From: Hansschlegelia zhihuaiae
Lineage (GTDB): Bacteria > Pseudomonadota > Alphaproteobacteria > Rhizobiales > Methylopilaceae
Assembly (NCBI RefSeq): GCF_004103825.1
Contig: NZ_RYFI01000003.1
Coordinates: 184,499 to 248,498, forward strand
Direction: 5' to 3'
Length of the DNA: 64,000 bases
Part shown: piece by piece, positions 38,410 through 46,693 of the stretch
Layout: each line of letters begins with the position of its first letter
How positions within the stretch are numbered: the stretch's first letter is position 1
Translations under genes and position numbers: made by a program
The notes under the pieces: model-generated
Seen by the model: the letters and a program-made list of their open reading frames with translations, nothing else
The model's database searches: none
Told to the model about the DNA's origin: nothing

Positions 38410-39825
38410 ATGGCGATGAAATCGGCGAACGACGTCATGAAGTTCATCAAGGAGAACGACGTGAAATACGTCGATCTCCGCTTCACCGACCCCAAGGGCA
38501 AATGGCAGCACGTCACCTTCGACATCACGATGGTGGACGACGAGTTCTTCTCCGAAGGCCAGATGTTCGACGGCTCGTCGATCGCCGGCTGGAAGGCCAT
38601 CAACGAGTCCGACATGCTGCTGATGCCGGACGTCGCGACCGCCTGCATCGATCCGTTCTTCGCCGCCACGACGCTCTCCGTGGTCTGCGACGTGCTTGAG
38701 CCCACCACCGGCGAGCCCTATGAGCGCGACCCACGCGGCACGGTGAAGAAGGCCGAGGTCTACATGCAGTCGCTGAACATCGGCGAGACGATCTATTTCG
38801 GCCCCGAGGCCGAGTTCTTCGTGTTCGACGACGTCAAGTTCTCCGCGACGCCCTACAAGGTCGGCTTCGAGGTGGACAGCGACGAGCTTCCGACCAACTC
38901 CGACGCCGAATACGACACCGGCAACCTCGGCCACCGGGTCCGCACCAAGGGCGGCTACTTCCCGGTCCCGCCGGTCGACAGCGCGCAGGACATGCGCGGC
39001 GAGATGCTGGCCGCCATGGCCGCGATGGGCGCCAAGGTCGAGAAGCACCATCACGAGGTGGCCTCGGCCCAGCACGAGCTCGGCCTGAAGTTCGAGGAGG
39101 TCGTCCGCATGGCCGACCATCTGCAGGTCTACAAATACTGCATCCACCAGGTGGCGCAGTCCTACGGCAAGACCGCGACCTTCATGCCGAAGCCGGTCTA
39201 TGGCGACAACGGCTCGGGCATGCACTGCCACATGTCGATCTGGAAGAAGGGCAAGCCGGTCTTCGCGGGCGACAAATATGCCGGCCTCAGCCAGGAGTGC
39301 CTCTGGTACATCGGCGGCGTGATCAAGCACGCCAAGGCCATCAACGCCTTCACCAACCCGACGACGAACAGCTACAAGCGCCTCGTGCCGGGCTTCGAGG
39401 CGCCGGTGCTGCTGGCCTACTCCGCCCGCAACCGCTCGGCCTCCTGCCGCATTCCGTGGACCAACTCGCCGAAGGCCAAGCGCGTCGAGGTGCGTTTCCC
39501 GGACCCGGCCGCGAACCCCTATCTCGCCTTCGCGGCGCTGATGATGGCCGGCCTCGACGGCATCGTGAACAAGCTCGATCCCGGCCAGGCGATGGACAAG
39601 GATCTCTACGACCTGCCGCCGCGCGAGCTGAAGAAGATCCCGACGGTGTGCGGCTCGCTCCGCGAGGCTCTTCAGTCGCTCGACAAGGACCGCGAGTTCC
39701 TGAAGAAGGGCAACGTGTTCACGGACGACCAGATCGACTCCTTCATCGAATTGAAGATGCAGGAAGTGATCCGCTTCGAGCACACCCCGCATCCGGTCGA
39801 GTACGACATGTACTACTCGGTCTGA
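38410..39825 (+). CDS. glnA: Glutamine synthetase type I
   Basis: Makes glutamine from glutamate, ammonia and ATP (471 aa, dodecameric GSI). [34 protein letters not shown] and the [10 protein letters not shown] segment are active-site signatures. The adenylylation tyrosine is Tyr400 in DLYDLPP, so the enzyme is of the covalently regulated GSI-beta type. An SD (GGAGGAA) precedes the ATG. Cotranscribed with glnB across a 73-bp gap and ended by a strong terminator. Confidence 0.98.
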
Positions 39826-39856
39826 ACCTCAGGGCTCGACCAACCTCGGATGCGAA

Positions 39857-39885
39857 AGGGGACGCCTCCGGGCGTCCCCTTTTTC
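39857..39885 (+). terminator. Rho-independent terminator of glnBA
   Basis: AGGGGACGCC / GGCGTCCCCT forms a 10-bp perfect stem with a TCCG loop, followed by TTTTC on the plus strand. It lies 32 bp after the glnA stop, in the convergent space with the acyltransferase gene. Confidence 0.9.
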
Positions 39886-39902
39886 GTCGCGCTCCTTGAA
39901 GT

Positions 39903-41021
39903 TCAGGCCGACGCCGCGGCGGCTTTCCGGGGCCGCCCCGCTCGGCTGACGATGAAGCGCTGGGCCGGCCGTTCGACGACGTAATGCAGCGCGGCCGCGG
40001 CCAGCACCGAGAGGCCGGCGGCGAGCGCGCCGAGGCCGATCAGGCCCGCCGGGCCCGAGACGCCTAGGATCTTCGCCCCGAGACCGTAGGTCACCATCAG
40101 CACCGGGGCGTGCGCCAGGTAGAGCGCGTAGGAGATCTCCCCGCCCCAGACCAGCGGGCGGGAACGCAGCAGTCCGCCTCGCGGAGCCAGCCCCTTGAGG
40201 GCGAGCAGGTAGACGAGCGCGAGCAGGCCCGGCCAGACCAGGATGCTGGGCGCGCCGGCAAGGACCGCGAGAGCCATCGCGAGCAGGACGCCTGCCGTCA
40301 TCCATGTCAGCCGGGCAGGCGCGATCGTGGTCCCGGCGCCGGTCTCCATGATCTGGCGCAGCGCGACGCCCGCGAAGAAGGACGGGACGATGCGGACCGC
40401 GCCCCAGTAGGTCAGGTTGAACAGGTCGAGGCCGAAGACGGCGCGGACCGCCGCCCAGAGGATCGCGGCCAAAGCGAGCGCCGCGGCGAGCTTTGCGACG
40501 GGCGACCGCAAGGCCGAGACGGCCGCGAGATAGACCGGGAAGCAGAGATAGGCGGTCCATTCCGCGCCGACCGACCACGATGGCTGGTTCCAGGCGTTCT
40601 CCCGGATGAGCCCCACGGCGTTGAGCAGCGCCGCGTGCTCGAGGAAGCCTGCGACCGTCGGCGTCCAGGGCGGCGCCATGCCGACGAACGTCCCCGCCCC
40701 CACGATCGCCGCGACGCCGAGCAGGCAGACGAGATGCAACGGCCAGATGCGCGCGATGCGTCGCGCCAGGAAGTCGCGGTGGTCGTAGCGCCCCTCCCGC
40801 CACGCCGCGCCGTAGACGTGGGCGAGCACGAAGCCGCTCAGCACGAAGAAGAAGTCGACCGCGAGCCGCGCCAGGGCGTCGGTCGGGATCAGCGTCCCGA
40901 TCGCGTCGCGCGAATAGGCGTCGACGTGGTAGAGGACGACCGCCGCCGCCGCGAAGCCGCGGGCCGCGGTGAGCTCGGAGAGGTCGACGCCCGGAGGCGG
41001 CGCGACGCGACCGCCGCTCAT
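39903..41021 (-). CDS. Membrane acyltransferase (acyltransferase 3 family), copy 2
   Basis: An integral membrane O-acyltransferase (372 aa, about ten membrane segments) of the type that acetylates or acylates exported sugars. Family features are LTAARGFAAAAVVLYHV, with the catalytic-type histidine, VDFFFVLSGFVLAHVYG and the DFLARRIARIWPLHL arginine pair. The start MSGGRVAPPPG overlaps the stop of the small Tat protein gene (ATGA). It resembles the acyltransferase at the head of the cluster, so the pair are paralogues. The substrate is unknown; a surface glycan or lipid is likely. Confidence 0.88.
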   Translation of the reverse strand: MSGGRVAPPPGVDLSELTAARGFAAAAVVLYHVDAYSRDAIGTLIPTDALARLAVDFFFVLSGFVLAHVYGAAWREGRYDHRDFLARRIARIWPLHLVCLLGVAAIVGAGTFVGMAPPWTPTVAGFLEHAALLNAVGLIRENAWNQPSWSVGAEWTAYLCFPVYLAAVSALRSPVAKLAAALALAAILWAAVRAVFGLDLFNLTYWGAVRIVPSFFAGVALRQIMETGAGTTIAPARLTWMTAGVLLAMALAVLAGAPSILVWPGLLALVYLLALKGLAPRGGLLRSRPLVWGGEISYALYLAHAPVLMVTYGLGAKILGVSGPAGLIGLGALAAGLSVLAAAALHYVVERPAQRFIVSRAGRPRKAAAASA

Positions 41022-41434
41022 GCCGTCGCTCCGCAGAGCAACCTCCCGGCGCAGAGCGCGGCCTCGGTCTCGGACAGCAGCCAGCCGTCCACCATGACGA
41101 TCCGCCCCTCGGCGAAATCGAGCGCGCACTGATCCTTGACGAGCGCCGCGCGGGACGTCGGGCAGGTCTCGCCCATGGCGGCGCGCGTGAAGGGCCGGCC
41201 GGCGAGCGACGACGCGAGCCGGGGCAGGTCCAAAGACATGTCGGACTGCGACAGCAGCGCCTCGCCGACCCGCCGCGACGCCTCGCCGTCCGGGGCGAGT
41301 TCGAGCAGCGAGAAGAAGTCCGGATGGTTGCGCGGCACGAAACGGCAGACCACGCGGCTCGCGCCATACGCGGCCCCCCCGAGGACGGCGAGACCGACGG
41401 AGCCGAGCAGCAGGCGGCGGGTGACGGCGGCCAT
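41018..41434 (-). CDS. Small protein with twin-arginine-like signal, partner of GMC oxidoreductase
   Basis: A 138-residue protein with a Tat-type start (TRRLLLGSVGLAVLGG, Arg6-Arg7). The mature part has no recognised fold, but ends DFAEGRIVMVDGWLLSETEA, a pattern I associate with small proteins encoded beside membrane GMC dehydrogenases. It sits 10 bp after the GMC gene and overlaps the next acyltransferase by ATGA. Since the GMC protein has no signal peptide, this may be the export-carrying (gamma-type) subunit. This role is inferred. Confidence 0.6.
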   Translation of the reverse strand: MAAVTRRLLLGSVGLAVLGGAAYGASRVVCRFVPRNHPDFFSLLELAPDGEASRRVGEALLSQSDMSLDLPRLASSLAGRPFTRAAMGETCPTSRAALVKDQCALDFAEGRIVMVDGWLLSETEAALCAGRLLCGATA

Positions 41435-41444
41435 CCTCTCCTCC

Positions 41445-43034
41445 TCAGGCGGTCGCCGCGAGCCGCTCGGCGAGACGGATCGCGAGCGCGACAATGGTGA
41501 GCGTCGGGTTGGCGCAGCCGCCGGTCGTGAAGACCGAGGACCCTCCGATATAAAGGTTCTCGACCGAATGCACGCGGCAGTTCGCGTCGACGACGCCCCG
41601 GCGCGGGTCGGAATGCATCCGGGTCGTGCCCATATGGTGATAGCCGGAGAACGCCATGTCGAGATCGGGCGTCTCGGCGATGCCGAGCTGCACGCGGCCG
41701 AGGCCCGCGGCGCCGATCGCCTGACCGATCAGCTCATGGGTGCGACGCAGCCGCAGGAGGTCGTCGGCGCTCACCCGCCAATCGAGCGCGATGCGGTTCT
41801 GCCCGAAGCGGTCCTTGGCGTCGATCAGATAGACCCGGCTGTCCGGATTGGGCGCCTGCTCGGCGTCCTGCCTGAGCTTGAAGACATGCGCGGCCTCCGG
41901 CGGCGCGACGCGACGCGCGACCTGTCGGAAAACCCCGGTCGCGACCGAGCCGAGATCGTCGACCGCGTCGCAGTAATGCTCGGCCAGTCGGTCGGGCATA
42001 TGACCGCGGCTGAATGCCTTCACCATGGAGGAGAACGCGATCCAGCCGTGGTTGCGATAGTCGGTGGAATAGATCTCATTCGCGTGCTGCGGCACCAGGA
42101 AAGCCGAGTTGGTGGTCAGCCGCTCGCGCTTCGTGAGTTCCGGCGTGAGCCTGAGGCCGAACTGGAGCTCGGCGCCGTCATAGATCTGGCTCTCCGAATA
42201 GAGCCGCGCGTCGACGCTGTCGGCGAGCAGCACCGTGGTGGCCTCGATCGTCATGTGGTCGGTGTAGTAGCGCCCGACGAGCCCGTGCTCGTTGCCGATC
42301 CCGGCCGGCCTCTGGGCCCGGGCGTTCAGCAGGATGCGAGCGTTCTCGATGCCGCCGCAGGCGAGGACGAAGGTCTTCGCCCGGACGGTGGCGACGTGGC
42401 CCTCAAGCGTCGAGACCGAAAGCGAGGAGACTGCGTTCGACCCCTCGGCGAGCCGCACGTCGGTCAGGTTGGCGTGCAGCCAGCAGTCGATCCGCGGCTC
42501 GGCCTCGACCGCTCCGTGGTATTTCTCGGCGAAGCGCGTCGGGGGGCTCTGCTGGAAGACGTCGGTGATCACCCGCGAAGGGTCGAGCGGCAGCGCCGGA
42601 AGCGGCACGATCCGGCGCCAATCCTCCCAGTCGTACCGATATGGCCCGAGGTCGAGATAGCCCTGGGCGCGCGCATAGAAGGGGTCGAGGTCGGCGCGCC
42701 GGATCGGCCAGCCGAACCCCCCGAGCCCCTCGCGCGGCTCGAAGTCGAGGGCGTCGAGCGGCGCGCACAATCCGGTCCAATGGCCCGAGGTGCCGCCGAA
42801 CTGCCGGAGCCGCGAATTCGCCACGTCGATGTTGCGATGGCCCACGACCTCGCCGCGATAGAGGTCCTGCGTGTCGTCCTCATAGGCGTCGCCGCCGCCC
42901 TCGAGCAGCACGACGCGGCGACCCTTACGGGCGAGTTCGAGCGCGATCGTCATCCCGGCCGGCCCGGTCCCGACCACGCAGACCTCGCCTTCGATCTCGG
43001 CGGGCGCGCCTCCGGTCCGCAGGTCCGAGATCAT
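41445..43034 (-). CDS. GMC family FAD-dependent oxidoreductase
   Basis: A 529-residue flavoprotein. The FAD-binding Rossmann motif VVGTGPAGMTIALELARKG is at residues 20-38, followed by acidic VVLLEGGG. The C-terminal GMC signature contains YHHMGTTRM (residues 465-473, His466/His467) and ANPTLTIVALAIRLAERL with Asn509; these are the usual catalytic His and Asn. It oxidises an alcohol or sugar hydroxyl, substrate unknown. It lacks a signal peptide. The ATG overlaps the stop of the upstream acyltransferase. The frame extends upstream only as out-of-frame sequence. Confidence 0.88.
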   Translation of the reverse strand: MISDLRTGGAPAEIEGEVCVVGTGPAGMTIALELARKGRRVVLLEGGGDAYEDDTQDLYRGEVVGHRNIDVANSRLRQFGGTSGHWTGLCAPLDALDFEPREGLGGFGWPIRRADLDPFYARAQGYLDLGPYRYDWEDWRRIVPLPALPLDPSRVITDVFQQSPPTRFAEKYHGAVEAEPRIDCWLHANLTDVRLAEGSNAVSSLSVSTLEGHVATVRAKTFVLACGGIENARILLNARAQRPAGIGNEHGLVGRYYTDHMTIEATTVLLADSVDARLYSESQIYDGAELQFGLRLTPELTKRERLTTNSAFLVPQHANEIYSTDYRNHGWIAFSSMVKAFSRGHMPDRLAEHYCDAVDDLGSVATGVFRQVARRVAPPEAAHVFKLRQDAEQAPNPDSRVYLIDAKDRFGQNRIALDWRVSADDLLRLRRTHELIGQAIGAAGLGRVQLGIAETPDLDMAFSGYHHMGTTRMHSDPRRGVVDANCRVHSVENLYIGGSSVFTTGGCANPTLTIVALAIRLAERLAATA

Positions 43035-44173
43035 GCCGCGCCGCTCTTCTGAGCCGCGGACGCGCCTTGCCTTGGCCGCAGCAGCAGGTTCGCCACCACG
43101 CGCCGCCCCGGGCGCTCCACGACCACATAGGCGATGTGCGAGCCGACAATCGTCGCCGCGATCGCGATCACGCCGAGGACAGCGCGCTCGCCGACGCTGG
43201 TCGCGAGGCCAAGCCGCTCGGCGAGCGCGAACACGACCTGCAGCGCGATCGCATGGATGAGGTAGAGCGCGTAGGAGAGCTCGCCGAGCCAGGCGAGCAG
43301 CCGCCCGCGCAGCAAGCCGGGCTCGGCCCATGTCCCCCGCGAGGCGAGCGCCGCGACCAGCACCACCATGGGCGGCCACAATGCGTCATAGCCGACGCCC
43401 AACGCGACCAGCCCCGCGCAGACCGCGAACACGCCGGCGACCGCCGCCGCATAGGCGCGCGGCGTCATGGACGTGAAGATCGGTTCGTCGTCGAACAGCC
43501 GCCGGAGCAGGATGCCGGCGAAGAAGGACGGCGCGATCCTGAGCGCTCCGCCGTCGAAGGTGAGCGACACCAGCTCCTGCCGAAGCGCAAGCTCGCTGAA
43601 CGCCGCGATCGCGACGAATCCCCCGAGGCCCGCGGCGATCCGCGCCACCGTTCCGCGCACGCGGTCAGCCAGCGCCAGGAACAACGGGATCGCGAGATAG
43701 GCGCACCATTCCGCGCTGACCGACCAGGACGGCCAGTTCCAGGCGAGGTCCGACGTCGCCCAGGTGGAGTGCATGAGCAGGGCCGTGACGAGGAAGGTCC
43801 ACCAGTCGTGCGGATTGTCGGGCTCGACGCCCATGAAGCGGCCCGCCGTCACCAGCAGCAACACCAGCAGCAGGGTGGCGAGGTGCAGCGGGTAGAGGCG
43901 GGCGAGCCGCCGCGCGAGGAAGCCGAAATAGCTGAAGCGGCCCTCGCGCCAGGCCTCGTCATACATGTGCGCGAGCACGAAGCCGCTCAGCACGAAGAAG
44001 AAGTCCACGACGATGCGGGTGTACTCGACCGCCGCGGGGAGCGTCGCATTGCCTTCGATCGTCTTGGCGTAGGTGTGGGCGAGCACGATCCACACCGCGG
44101 CCAGTCCGCGCGCGGAGACGAGCTCCGGCAGGAGCTGACCAGGCTTGAGCCTGTTGGTGGCGTCGACCGACAT
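43031..44173 (-). CDS. Membrane acyltransferase (acyltransferase 3 family), copy 1
   Basis: The first gene of the four-gene cassette (380 aa, about ten membrane segments). LVSARGLAAVWIVLAHTY with the conserved histidine, VDFFFVLSGFVLAHMYDEAW and FLARRLARLYPLHLATLL match the family and closely resemble the acyltransferase at 39903-41021. It probably transfers an acyl or acetyl group to a sugar at the inner membrane. The start MSVDATNRLKPGQ is preferred to an ATG 26 codons upstream in basic, low-complexity sequence. It is coupled to the GMC gene by ATGA. Confidence 0.88.
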   Translation of the reverse strand: MSVDATNRLKPGQLLPELVSARGLAAVWIVLAHTYAKTIEGNATLPAAVEYTRIVVDFFFVLSGFVLAHMYDEAWREGRFSYFGFLARRLARLYPLHLATLLLVLLLVTAGRFMGVEPDNPHDWWTFLVTALLMHSTWATSDLAWNWPSWSVSAEWCAYLAIPLFLALADRVRGTVARIAAGLGGFVAIAAFSELALRQELVSLTFDGGALRIAPSFFAGILLRRLFDDEPIFTSMTPRAYAAAVAGVFAVCAGLVALGVGYDALWPPMVVLVAALASRGTWAEPGLLRGRLLAWLGELSYALYLIHAIALQVVFALAERLGLATSVGERAVLGVIAIAATIVGSHIAYVVVERPGRRVVANLLLRPRQGASAAQKSGAA

Positions 44174-44321
44174 CGTCACGCTTTCGTCCCGCGCGCGGCG
44201 GCGTCGTTTCGGACCGGCGCGGCGTCGATGATCGGATGAGGCTAAACCCAAGAGGCTTAAGGCGAGATTATGCCAACCGCAGAGCCGGCCGCGCCTTTAT
44301 GACGGAAAAGGCGAACCGCGC

Positions 44322-44350
44322 TTGACGGACCGACCCGACGGGCGCATGAT
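44322..44350 (+). promoter_or_regulatory. Candidate sigma-70-type promoter, plus strand
   Basis: TTGACG (44322-44327) and CATGAT (44345-44350) are separated by 17 nt, the optimal spacing. The match is five of six at -35 and four of six at -10. It points toward a region with no plus-strand protein gene, so it may drive the candidate RNA described next. Activity is unproven. Confidence 0.4.
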
Positions 44351-44385
44351 TCAGAGGTCAACACAAAGTACGGAGGTCTAGAAAA

Positions 44386-44421
44386 ATGACTCCGCCGAAG
44401 CGTGTAGACTTACCGCGGTGA
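44386..44421 (+). CDS. Possible 11-codon small ORF with strong Shine-Dalgarno
   Basis: ATG at 44386 follows ACGGAGGTCTAGAAAA, a strong SD at good spacing, and encodes MTPPKRVDLPR before TGA. A CGCGC/GCGCG hairpin follows immediately. The arrangement resembles a leader peptide, but no downstream plus-strand gene exists to regulate. It may be chance. Confidence 0.25.
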   Translation: MTPPKRVDLPR

Positions 44422-44660
44422 CGCGCATCCGGAGCGCGAATAGGCTGCGGCAGGATAACAATTGAAACTGGTTTTTGCCGAAGGTTTGCTTTTCGACTTC
44501 TTTAGTCAGCGCGCCGATGGATCGGAACGGCGTCGTTGACTGATTGGATGAGGGGCGAAGACTTCGGAATAGATCGACGACGCGCAGGATCCACTATCAG
44601 CCGGAGCCACGCAAAGCGGGCCGGCCCAACCCAGAGCGGATCTGCCGCATCGACTTACTA

Positions 44661-44694
44661 GGAACGCCTCGCCGCCTGGTCGGCGGGGCGTTTC
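44661..44694. terminator. Terminator-like hairpin downstream of hflX and of the candidate RNA
   Basis: GGAACGCCTCGCCGCC and CGGCGGGGCGTTTCC form a long stem with a TGGT loop. The T content after the stem is modest (TTTCCGCGTTT on plus, none on minus), so it fits the plus strand slightly better. It lies 51 bp beyond the hflX stop and could also serve hflX. Confidence 0.5.
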
Positions 44695-44745
44695 CGCGTT
44701 TGGCCCTCGCCCGAGCAGCCACGAGCCGTGCGCGGCCGGCGCGCC

Positions 44746-46122
44746 TCATGCGCGGCGGCGCCGGTCCTCGGGCTCAGTCGCTTCCACCCTCGCGAAACGA
44801 CGGCGGAGCCCTTCGATCCGCTCCGGCTCGACGCGCACAGTGAAGCGGACCGAACCTTCGGGCTCGACCATGCGGTCCATGACGTCGCCATGGCGGCGCA
44901 GCCAGTTCTCGCCGGCGCCGTCCGTCGCCTCGAGGATCACCACGACCGTCTCACGCGTGGCGGACAGCCGGTTCTCCACCGCTTCGAGCAGAGCTTCCTC
45001 GCCCTCCCCCGTGAGCGCGGACATGACGACCGGCCTCGCGGCCTCCGCGCGCCGCGCGGCGGTCGCGGCGAGCGTCTGGCGAATTTCGGGATCGAGCCGA
45101 TCCACCTTGTTCCAGACTTCGATGAGCCGCCCGTCGGTCTCGGGATCGATCCCGAGGTCGCGCAGCACCGAACGGACGTCGGAGCCTTGCGCCTCCGCGT
45201 CCTCGTGGCTGACGTCGCGGACATGCAGGATCACGTCGGCCTCCAGCACCTCCTCGAGCGTCGCCCGGAAGGCGGCGATCAGCTGCGTCGGAAGCTCCGA
45301 GATGAAGCCGACCGTGTCGGAGAGGATGGCGTGCGCGCCATGCGGCAGCCGGATCTGCCGCAGCGTCGGGTCGAGCGTCGCGAACAGCATGTCGGCGGCC
45401 GTCACCTCGGCCCGGGTTAGGCGGTTGAACAGCGTCGACTTGCCGGCGTTGGTGTAGCCGACCAGCGCGACCACCGGATAGGGCACGCGCTTGCGGCCGG
45501 CCCGGTGCAGGCCGCGGGTGCGCTTCACCTGCTCGAGCTCCCGCTCGATCTTCAGGATGCGCTCGCCGATGACCCGGCGGTCGGCCTCGATCTGGGTCTC
45601 GCCGGGGCCGCCAAGGAAGCCAAAGCCGCCGCGCTGGCGCTCGAGATGGGTCCAGGAGCGGACGAGGCGGCTCTTCTGCCAGGTGAGATGGGCGTGCTCG
45701 ACCTGTAGCACGCCCTCCTTGGTGCGGGCGCGACGACCGAAGATCTCGAGAATCAGCCCCGTCCTGTCCAGGACCTTGGCCCCCAGCTCCTTTTCGAGGT
45801 TTCGCTGCTGGACGGGGGTCAGCGCCGCGTCCACCACCACGAGCTCGATCCCGGAGGCGCGCACGAGGTCGGCGAACTCGGCGACCTTGCCCTTGCCCAG
45901 GAAAGTCGCGGGGCGCACCTCGGACAGCGTCACGAGATGGCTTTCCGCGACGTCGAGGTCGATCGCTTCCGCGAGGCCGACGGCCTCCGTAAGCCGCGCC
46001 TCGGGCGGACGGCCGGAATCGTCGACCGCGCCCTTCCGCCCGAGCGTCGGCGTGACCACCATGGCCCGCGTCCGCGCCTTGCGGCGCCGGGTCGTCAGAT
46101 CAGAATCCGCGTCCTGTCCCAA
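44746..46122 (-). CDS. hflX: GTPase HflX
   Basis: A ribosome-associated GTPase (458 aa) that splits stalled ribosomes under stress. The N-terminal HflX domain ends with [13 protein letters not shown] (171-183), then Walker [10 protein letters not shown] at 222-230, a LSDTVGFI switch and the NKVD specificity motif. Length fits the family. It is 44 bp downstream of hfq on the same strand, the conserved hfq-hflX pair. Confidence 0.97.
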
Positions 46123-46166
46123 TCGCCGTTCCTGCTAGACGGCGCCCGGACCGCAGACGGCGGTCG

Positions 46167-46442
46167 TCACCGGCCGGCGCGCGCCGGGACGGCGACCTCG
46201 GCGTCCGCCTCCTCCGGCTCGAAGAGCTGGATCGGGTGGCCGGGCATCACCGTCGATATGGCGTGCTTGTAGACGAGTTGCGAGTGCCCGTCGCGTCTCA
46301 GCAGCACGCAGAAATTGTCGAACCACGTCACGACGCCCTGCAGCTTGACGCCGTTCACGAGGAAGATAGTCAGCGGGACCTTGTTCTTGCGAACGTTGTT
46401 GAGAAACGTGTCCTGCAGATTCTGGGTGCGCTCGGCGGCCAT
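46167..46442 (-). CDS. hfq: RNA chaperone Hfq
   Basis: A 91-residue hexameric Sm-like protein that pairs sRNAs with mRNAs. [20 protein letters not shown] and the Sm1 region [18 protein letters not shown] are diagnostic, with Sm2 [10 protein letters not shown] near residues 58-67. It has a short acidic/alanine-rich C-terminal tail. In Rhizobiales it is positioned between ntrX and hflX, here after the aminotransferase. Confidence 0.98.
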
Positions 46443-46693
46443 CTTCTTGTTCTTTCATTTGAGCTCAACCGTTCGCCGCTTCGCCGCCGACGCGAGGCGA
46501 ATGGAGCCTGTCTCGGGATTTTTTCCCGCCTGCCGCCCCGTCCCCGACGTCGACGCGCAGTCCGAACCGGCGTCGGGTCATATTAATGCTGCGGCGCCGG
46601 CTTTCCGCAAGGCCGCAGAGGTAGGACTGTCAGCCTCAGGGGCGCCGCAGAGCCAATTTCGTTAGCCGTCATTCCCAGATCAGGACAGTGATT

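Follow-up and report, generated by a model that had tools for sequence, protein, structure and literature searches.

What do two membrane acyltransferases, a flavin-dependent oxidoreductase and a small protein with a putative twin-arginine signal do together in one operon? The question is raised by a locus of Hansschlegelia zhihuaiae (assembly GCF_004103825.1, 61 contigs, 4.62 Mb), which lies in a window of 64,000 nt, the whole stretch of DNA analysed here, at positions 184,499-248,498 of contig NZ_RYFI01000003.1. Its four genes encode the acyltransferase-3 (AT3) proteins AT1 and AT2, a GMC-family oxidoreductase that depends on flavin adenine dinucleotide (FAD), and the small protein with the arginine pair (RR), which is called T below. 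A first-pass annotation, made from the sequence alone, had read the set as possibly a compact system that both oxidises and acylates one surface molecule. We find that the conserved unit of the locus is GMC-T, the pair of adjacent GMC and T genes, and not the four-gene set. That T is the partner of the GMC protein, a point that the annotation had not singled out, is best supported by the data. We favour, with a probability of roughly 0.6, the interpretation that GMC-T is an exported two-subunit dehydrogenase, with T as the carrier for the twin-arginine translocation (Tat) system, and that the AT3 proteins are separate acylators of envelope glycans.

The evidence for the pair comes from searches with T, which matched 16 of 249 genomes searched in the order, 15 of 385 in the class (17 matches) and 7 of 398 in the phylum (three of them already known), the figures for order and class including the window genome itself. 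With the alignment queries used for class and phylum, at most ten first-look candidates per genome were scored for T, and at most three for the GMC, so that the distribution of GMC-T is a lower bound. With the window genome left aside, a GMC gene of the same branch adjoins T in 14 of 15 matches at the order level, 15 of 16 at the class level, and 2 of the 4 new matches at the phylum level. Four T matches are without such a neighbour. Three of them, one inside a protein of 1052 residues (L037) and two weak phylum-level matches (L144, L145), are regarded as chance similarities to signal-like stretches; the fourth (L069) is taken up below. In all 37 tabulated pairs, the two genes are on the same strand and spaced by -11 to +31 bp. 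The GMC gene comes first in 31 pairs and T in 6, and adjacency thus outlives a reversal of the gene order. The table was built from pairs already found adjacent and informs about spacing and order, and the frequency of T without GMC has to be taken from the search counts. Pairs also occur on two Rhodobacterales plasmids (CP081162.1, and NC_007801.1 of Jannaschia sp. CCS1), and the named relatives of the window GMC, at 65-70% identity, belong to Hansschlegelia and Methylopila. In a limited PubMed Central search, which does not prove absence, no paper describing the pair or the four-gene set was recognised.

Two matches come from genomes outside the class. In one of them, the gene directly after the GMC gene (L141:9563-10675) encodes a protein of 370 residues, of which T is the N-terminal part; Pfam finds nothing in the remaining stretch of about 230 residues. 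The other genome (G925) has a weak T match (L181, E 5e-4) beside a GMC gene.

T and its relatives are proteins of about 110-175 residues with a sparsely scattered distribution. They consist of a putative signal region with the RR pair and a conserved hydrophobic stretch behind it, a middle part with a conserved glycine (Gly57), and a C-terminal motif, DFxxGxxVxxDGWxLSxTE. The arginine pair and the C-terminal motif are among the most constant residues. Four cysteines are near-invariant in T of 15 relatives, as might be expected for a protein of an oxidising compartment, and the window genome encodes TatC. At E up to 1, neither Pfam nor NCBIfam gave a match to the window T. A search of 15 members against Pfam returned scattered weak matches (best E 0.073), and 29 members compared with NCBIfam reached E 0.0081 at best, with no family found in more than two of them. 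Assignment of T to the Gluconate_2-dh3 family (PF13618) was rejected, as 0 of 15 T proteins matched at E up to 1. Since sequence kinship with PF13618 is lacking, it is from analogy, adjacency and the signal that we propose a function for T.

The GMC protein begins with the Rossmann fold, carries the FAD motif GTGPAG at residues 22-27, and has no signal of its own. Its GMC_oxred_C domain scores 84.8 bits, against a cut-off of 24.6; the predicted model of the protein is of low confidence, with a predicted local distance difference test score (pLDDT) of 35. When a profile of the GMC branch was compared with solved structures, the catalytic subunit of the FAD glucose dehydrogenase of Burkholderia cepacia (BcGDH, 6a2u) came out best (E 1.1e-54), followed by the large subunits of fructose dehydrogenases. 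For BcGDH, it is stated that a bond between His105 and the C8M atom of FAD might form (PMC6719666). The aligned residue of the window GMC is His85, and its column contains histidine in 36 of 37 T-partnered rows (38 of 39 with the copies L151 and L176, which were dropped before counting), but in only 7 of 42 rows without T (79 rows together). In the other T-less rows, this position is taken by Leu, Ala, Cys, Thr or further residues. Among 53 loci collected with a GMC profile that held both T-partnered and T-less kinds, a subset of the listed matches, all 16 with T have the histidine, against 7 of 37 without; of these 16, L174 and L181 are new, whereas the T searches had already turned up the other 14. 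The association of T and histidine, which on the tree involves at least seven changes of T and at least eight of the histidine, is strong by counts, but not significant after correction for kinship. The pattern would fit a bonded flavin that is kept in exported enzymes and lost in T-less, apparently cytoplasmic ones. Two T-less GMC relatives on Rhizobium plasmids (L106, L107) adjoin a cluster with nonribosomal peptide synthetase/polyketide synthase, aminotransferase and phosphopantetheinyl transferase genes.

Several observations weigh against an exported pair with T as its carrier. In genome G326, T (L069) and a His-bearing GMC (L154) are on different contigs; the latter was found as a six-frame match that crosses one in-frame stop. 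The T-partnered GMC of L035 has Gln at the His85 column, and seven T-less GMCs retain the histidine. When the T-His link was reduced to three supported independent pairs, the histidine changed along with T in an average of 2.9 of 3 over 200 pairings, with p 0.25 in a sign test that cannot attain significance on three pairs. Models of Tat signals recognise few T proteins: PF10518 (TAT_signal) matched 1 of 15 members (E 0.26), and TIGR01409 matched 1 of 29 (E 0.071). A profile comparison of T with 14 PF13618 members by hhalign gave a probability of 0.1, and an AlphaFold model of T from six sequences (pLDDT 66) has no fold match, the best Foldseek match being at E 2.2. Finally, no gene for an electron acceptor was seen beside the operon.

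The features of the locus are collected in Table 1. ATGA overlaps join AT1 to GMC and T to AT2, and the gap between GMC and T, read from the sequence, is 10 bp. A simple gene caller that relies on codon usage and was trained on the window returned the same four genes, and the first-pass description of four minus-strand genes with ATGA overlaps and one 10-bp gap was exact. Because a second genome, that of Hansschlegelia plantiphila (L018), has counterparts of all four genes in identical order, the arrangement is not due to chance.

Table 1. Features of the operon and its products; positions are those of the window.
Feature	Position	Strand	Basis
AT1, standalone acyltransferase-3 membrane protein, 380 aa	43031..44173	-	PF01757 E 1.8e-33; R-X10-H 22-33, RXXR 89, SXXXY 300
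GMC-family FAD oxidoreductase, 529 aa, without own signal peptide	41445..43034	-	PF05199 E 1.1e-23; best PDB match is the BcGDH catalytic subunit; Rossmann motif from about residue 16
GMC His85 codon	42780..42782	-	Aligned with BcGDH His105 (profile alignment); His in 36/37 T-partnered relatives
GMC His466-His467 codons, catalytic His region (HHMGTTRM)	41634..41639	-	His466 column is His in 81/81 rows; at the NH pair of BcGDH
T, small RR protein, 138 aa, proposed Tat hitch-hiker of GMC	41018..41434	-	RR at residues 6-7, then hydrophobic stretch; adjoins GMC in 37 pairs
T C-terminal conserved motif, DFxxGxxVxxDGWxLSxTE	41063..41119	-	Alignments of T relatives
AT2, standalone acyltransferase-3 membrane protein, 372 aa, AT1 paralogue	39903..41021	-	PF01757 E 2.4e-26; R-X10-H 21-32, RXXR 88, SXXXY 297

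According to Pfam, the operon is flanked on one side by genes for ClpX, ClpP, trigger factor, an NAD(P)H-hydrate epimerase/dehydratase, P-II and glutamine synthetase, and on the other by genes for an HflX-type GTPase, Hfq, a class IV aminotransferase and a sigma-54 activator. All ten are housekeeping or regulatory genes. The lack of an adjacent glycosyltransferase or transporter, remarked on in the first pass, extends over all of them, and no cytochrome gene is among them either. An Rfam scan of positions 39000-46500 found nothing at the gathering score, terminator-like sites are at chance level (2 vs 2.3), and the sole promoter-like site found is on the plus strand. A GC-rich inverted repeat at about 39853-39884, between the convergent genes AT2 and glnA, was noticed by eye and is absent from the list of the terminator scan. 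Some relatives have a gene for a PhoX-type phosphatase between hflX and AT1 (L024:13352-15325, by Pfam; L137:5237-7210, by its similar N-terminus), which suggests that the interval from glnA to hflX accepts variable genes. In some other Methylopilaceae, a cytochrome c gene is found near the operon site (L137:12377-12949, L024:9405-9977, L025:9317-9889, L029:9381-9959, L135:10410-10988; Pfam-tested in L137, the others assigned by similar N-termini). Presumably, this cytochrome resembles cytochrome cL.

AT1 and AT2 share 42% identity and clear the PF01757 cut-off of 31 bits with 116.5 and 93 bits; a Pfam scan found no domain besides AT3 above cut-off in either. Both contain all three motifs, R-X10-H, RXXR and SXXXY, that are described in PMC9833829 as conserved in AT3 domains, with the first two essential. 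The picture of two paralogous acyltransferases flanking a flavin-dependent GMC oxidoreductase and a small RR protein holds. The whole genome has seven PF01757 matches.

The tight ATGA coupling is an argument for a single pathway of all four proteins, in which a surface molecule would be oxidised by the GMC enzyme and acylated by AT1 and AT2. The distribution of the genes speaks on both sides. Among 18 Methylopilaceae genomes searched, 11 contain a close GMC (at least 65% identity), and in 7 of the 11 AT1 is at the GMC-T locus, in support of a common pathway. AT2 is at the locus in the window genome and in that of H. plantiphila (G968), and a survey for the same four genes in the same order, which the first pass had suggested, retrieved the full set from just these 2 of 11. 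The two genomes are in different groups of an unrooted housekeeping tree, and may thus continue an ancestral operon of four genes. Against a common pathway, GMC-T is without either AT3 at the locus in 4 of the 11 genomes (G111, G215, G235, G969). Conversely, genome G076, without a GMC or T match, retains homologues of both acyltransferases, that of AT1 (55%) in the same region, on the side of glnA, and that of AT2 (57%) at a separate place; another member of the family (G964) has one distant GMC and no convincing T. Outside the Methylopilaceae, an AT3 gene, divergently transcribed and matched by PF01757 (L034), is near 1 of 26 GMC-T pairs (25 loci), in a scan with a model derived from the AT genes of this analysis, which could miss distant AT3s or those cut off where loci end at contig ends. 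AT1 and AT2 look like ordinary acyltransferases that are loosely attached to GMC-T in one bacterial family. The single-pathway idea is possible but not favoured, and we consider it unlikely. What stands of the proposed oxidise-and-acylate system is a likely extracytoplasmic setting, whereas its unity is weakened by the separation of the AT3 genes from GMC-T. With respect to history, the AT2 proteins of the window and of L018 group together. We considered whether the cassette had been replaced horizontally in the window genome, because several of the window's housekeeping genes are nearest to those of L026 and L032, whereas GMC identity is highest elsewhere. Such a replacement is not favoured, since housekeeping and GMC trees alike put the window with L026 and L032; in the first GMC tree some branches had low support, and the GMC sequences of L018, L023 and L035 had shortened N-termini, but were longer in later trees. 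Most simply, the operon would be old, and its AT genes would have been lost repeatedly and GMC-T once.

The surroundings of more distant pairs bear on the substrate. At least 6 of the 26 pairs outside the family have two or more polysaccharide genes nearby, a count of seen cases and not a rate, as Pfam was applied to part of the loci. A flippase, a dTDP-sugar epimerase and glycosyltransferases are near the pairs of L056 and L066, an export protein, Wzz, a flippase and a glycosyltransferase near that of L058, and a flippase and a glycosyltransferase near that of L067; L102 and L103 have annotated glycosyltransferases, together with an export protein and an O-antigen ligase in L102 and a sulfotransferase in L103. 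One or two glycosyltransferase or MBOAT genes are found in L057, L061 and L063. The first-pass annotation had named homologous clusters with known exopolysaccharide genes and a defined product as evidence that would speak against its proposal. The six pairs, with GMC proteins about 35-41% identical to the GMC branch of the window, provide the polysaccharide genes, but none of them has a defined product. A different context is seen in one other family, where three pairs (L028, L030, L031; GMC 58-62% identical) have genes for malate synthase and GlcDEF-like proteins in their vicinity (assigned by Pfam for malate synthase in L031 and for the GlcDEF-like set in L028, and by similar N-termini for the remainder). 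These loci could suggest that GMC-T is a catabolic periplasmic alcohol dehydrogenase, which would feed small alcohols such as glycols into C2 metabolism, with no link to glycans. The cytochrome c gene near the locus in several Methylopilaceae genomes points in the same direction, but it is also present in G076 (L135), which is without GMC-T. In view of the six more distant pairs among polysaccharide genes, and of sugars as the substrates of the nearest solved relatives, we regard a purely catabolic role as a tentative alternative, and rather doubt it. Alternatively, T may be a maturation factor for folding or flavin attachment of the GMC protein and not mainly a carrier, and the pair could remain anchored in the membrane by an uncleaved T signal. 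The small subunit of BcGDH is said to be required for folding besides secretion (PMC6719666). Moreover, T presence accompanies the FAD-bonding histidine, and inspection by eye finds no clear signal-peptidase site in the window T. However, histidyl flavinylation in GMC enzymes is generally considered autocatalytic, and conservation of the RR pair, which together with the C-terminal motif is among the most constant parts of T, speaks against a mere maturation factor; we consider this explanation improbable.

According to the preferred reading of GMC-T as an exported dehydrogenase, the GMC protein would fold and take up FAD in the cytoplasm, and the FAD would become bonded to it via His85. The GMC protein would bind T, and the Tat system would move the complex over the membrane using the twin-arginine signal of T. 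Outside the cytoplasm, the GMC enzyme would oxidise a hydroxyl group on a sugar, polyol or glycan and hand the electrons to an acceptor; counterparts of the iron-sulphur segment and of the adjacent multihaem cytochrome gene of the BcGDH complex are missing. AT1 and AT2 would be separate AT3 enzymes that use cytoplasmic acyl-CoA to O-acylate, and most likely to acetylate, a carbohydrate of the envelope. Their genes probably entered the operon in an ancestor of the Methylopilaceae and were later lost several times, which would imply that the acyltransferases act beside GMC-T and are not needed by the pair.

A more general proposal, to which we give about even odds, is that T founds an unnamed family of Tat hitch-hikers, with no detectable relationship to the PF13618 small subunits, that export a flavin-bonded branch of GMC enzymes, that loss of the carrier was followed by loss of the histidine as the enzyme turned cytoplasmic, and that the exported enzymes oxidise surface polysaccharides in several lineages. 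If so, a sparsely scattered protein would obtain a role, and there would be a second, apparently unrelated solution for the hitch-hiker export of GMC dehydrogenases. The flavin-bonding histidine together with T would be a sequence mark that helps to separate exported from cytoplasmic GMC members. The pairs could also provide a handle on the oxidative tailoring of surface polysaccharides.

Among known systems, pyranose 2-oxidase has a similar C-terminal GMC domain, as judged by PDB matches and by TIGR02462. With 80.4 bits, the window GMC is far below the equivalog cut-off of that model (544.9 bits), and the pyranose 2-oxidase family is not known to include a small Tat partner. Glucoside 3-dehydrogenases of the LacABC type combine a GMC subunit with a small Tat subunit and act on saccharides. 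T does not match PF13618, the family of their small subunit. AT1 and AT2 resemble standalone acyltransferase-3 proteins (OafA/OafB-like, PF01757) in the domain and the three motifs, and differ from them in being coupled to a GMC gene. The closest parallel is with BcGDH and fructose dehydrogenase, which have a homologous GMC catalytic subunit and a small RR-signal subunit encoded by an adjacent gene; both the FAD-bonding and the catalytic histidine of BcGDH are aligned with counterparts in the window GMC. There are three differences. The small subunits of this type belong to PF13618, and T has no detectable kinship to the PF13618 members that were tested. The BcGDH complex has an adjacent gene for a multihaem cytochrome c, whereas the window operon has none among its ten flanking genes. 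Finally, residues 194-242 of BcGDH, which hold its four cysteines (for the 3Fe-4S cluster) according to PMC6719666, have no aligned counterpart in the GMC branch of the window. A CC-x4-C-x3-C pattern was found in 0 of 35 T-partnered rows and also in 0 of 10 PF13618-partnered rows, an absence that is weak because the pattern had no positive control; 3 of 13 PF13618-adjacent GMC pieces had been left out of the tree, as they had no recognisable start. According to the same source, the small subunit of BcGDH bears a Tat signal and acts as a hitch-hiker protein required for folding and secretion (PMC6719666), and a comparable carrier role is the one that we propose for T.

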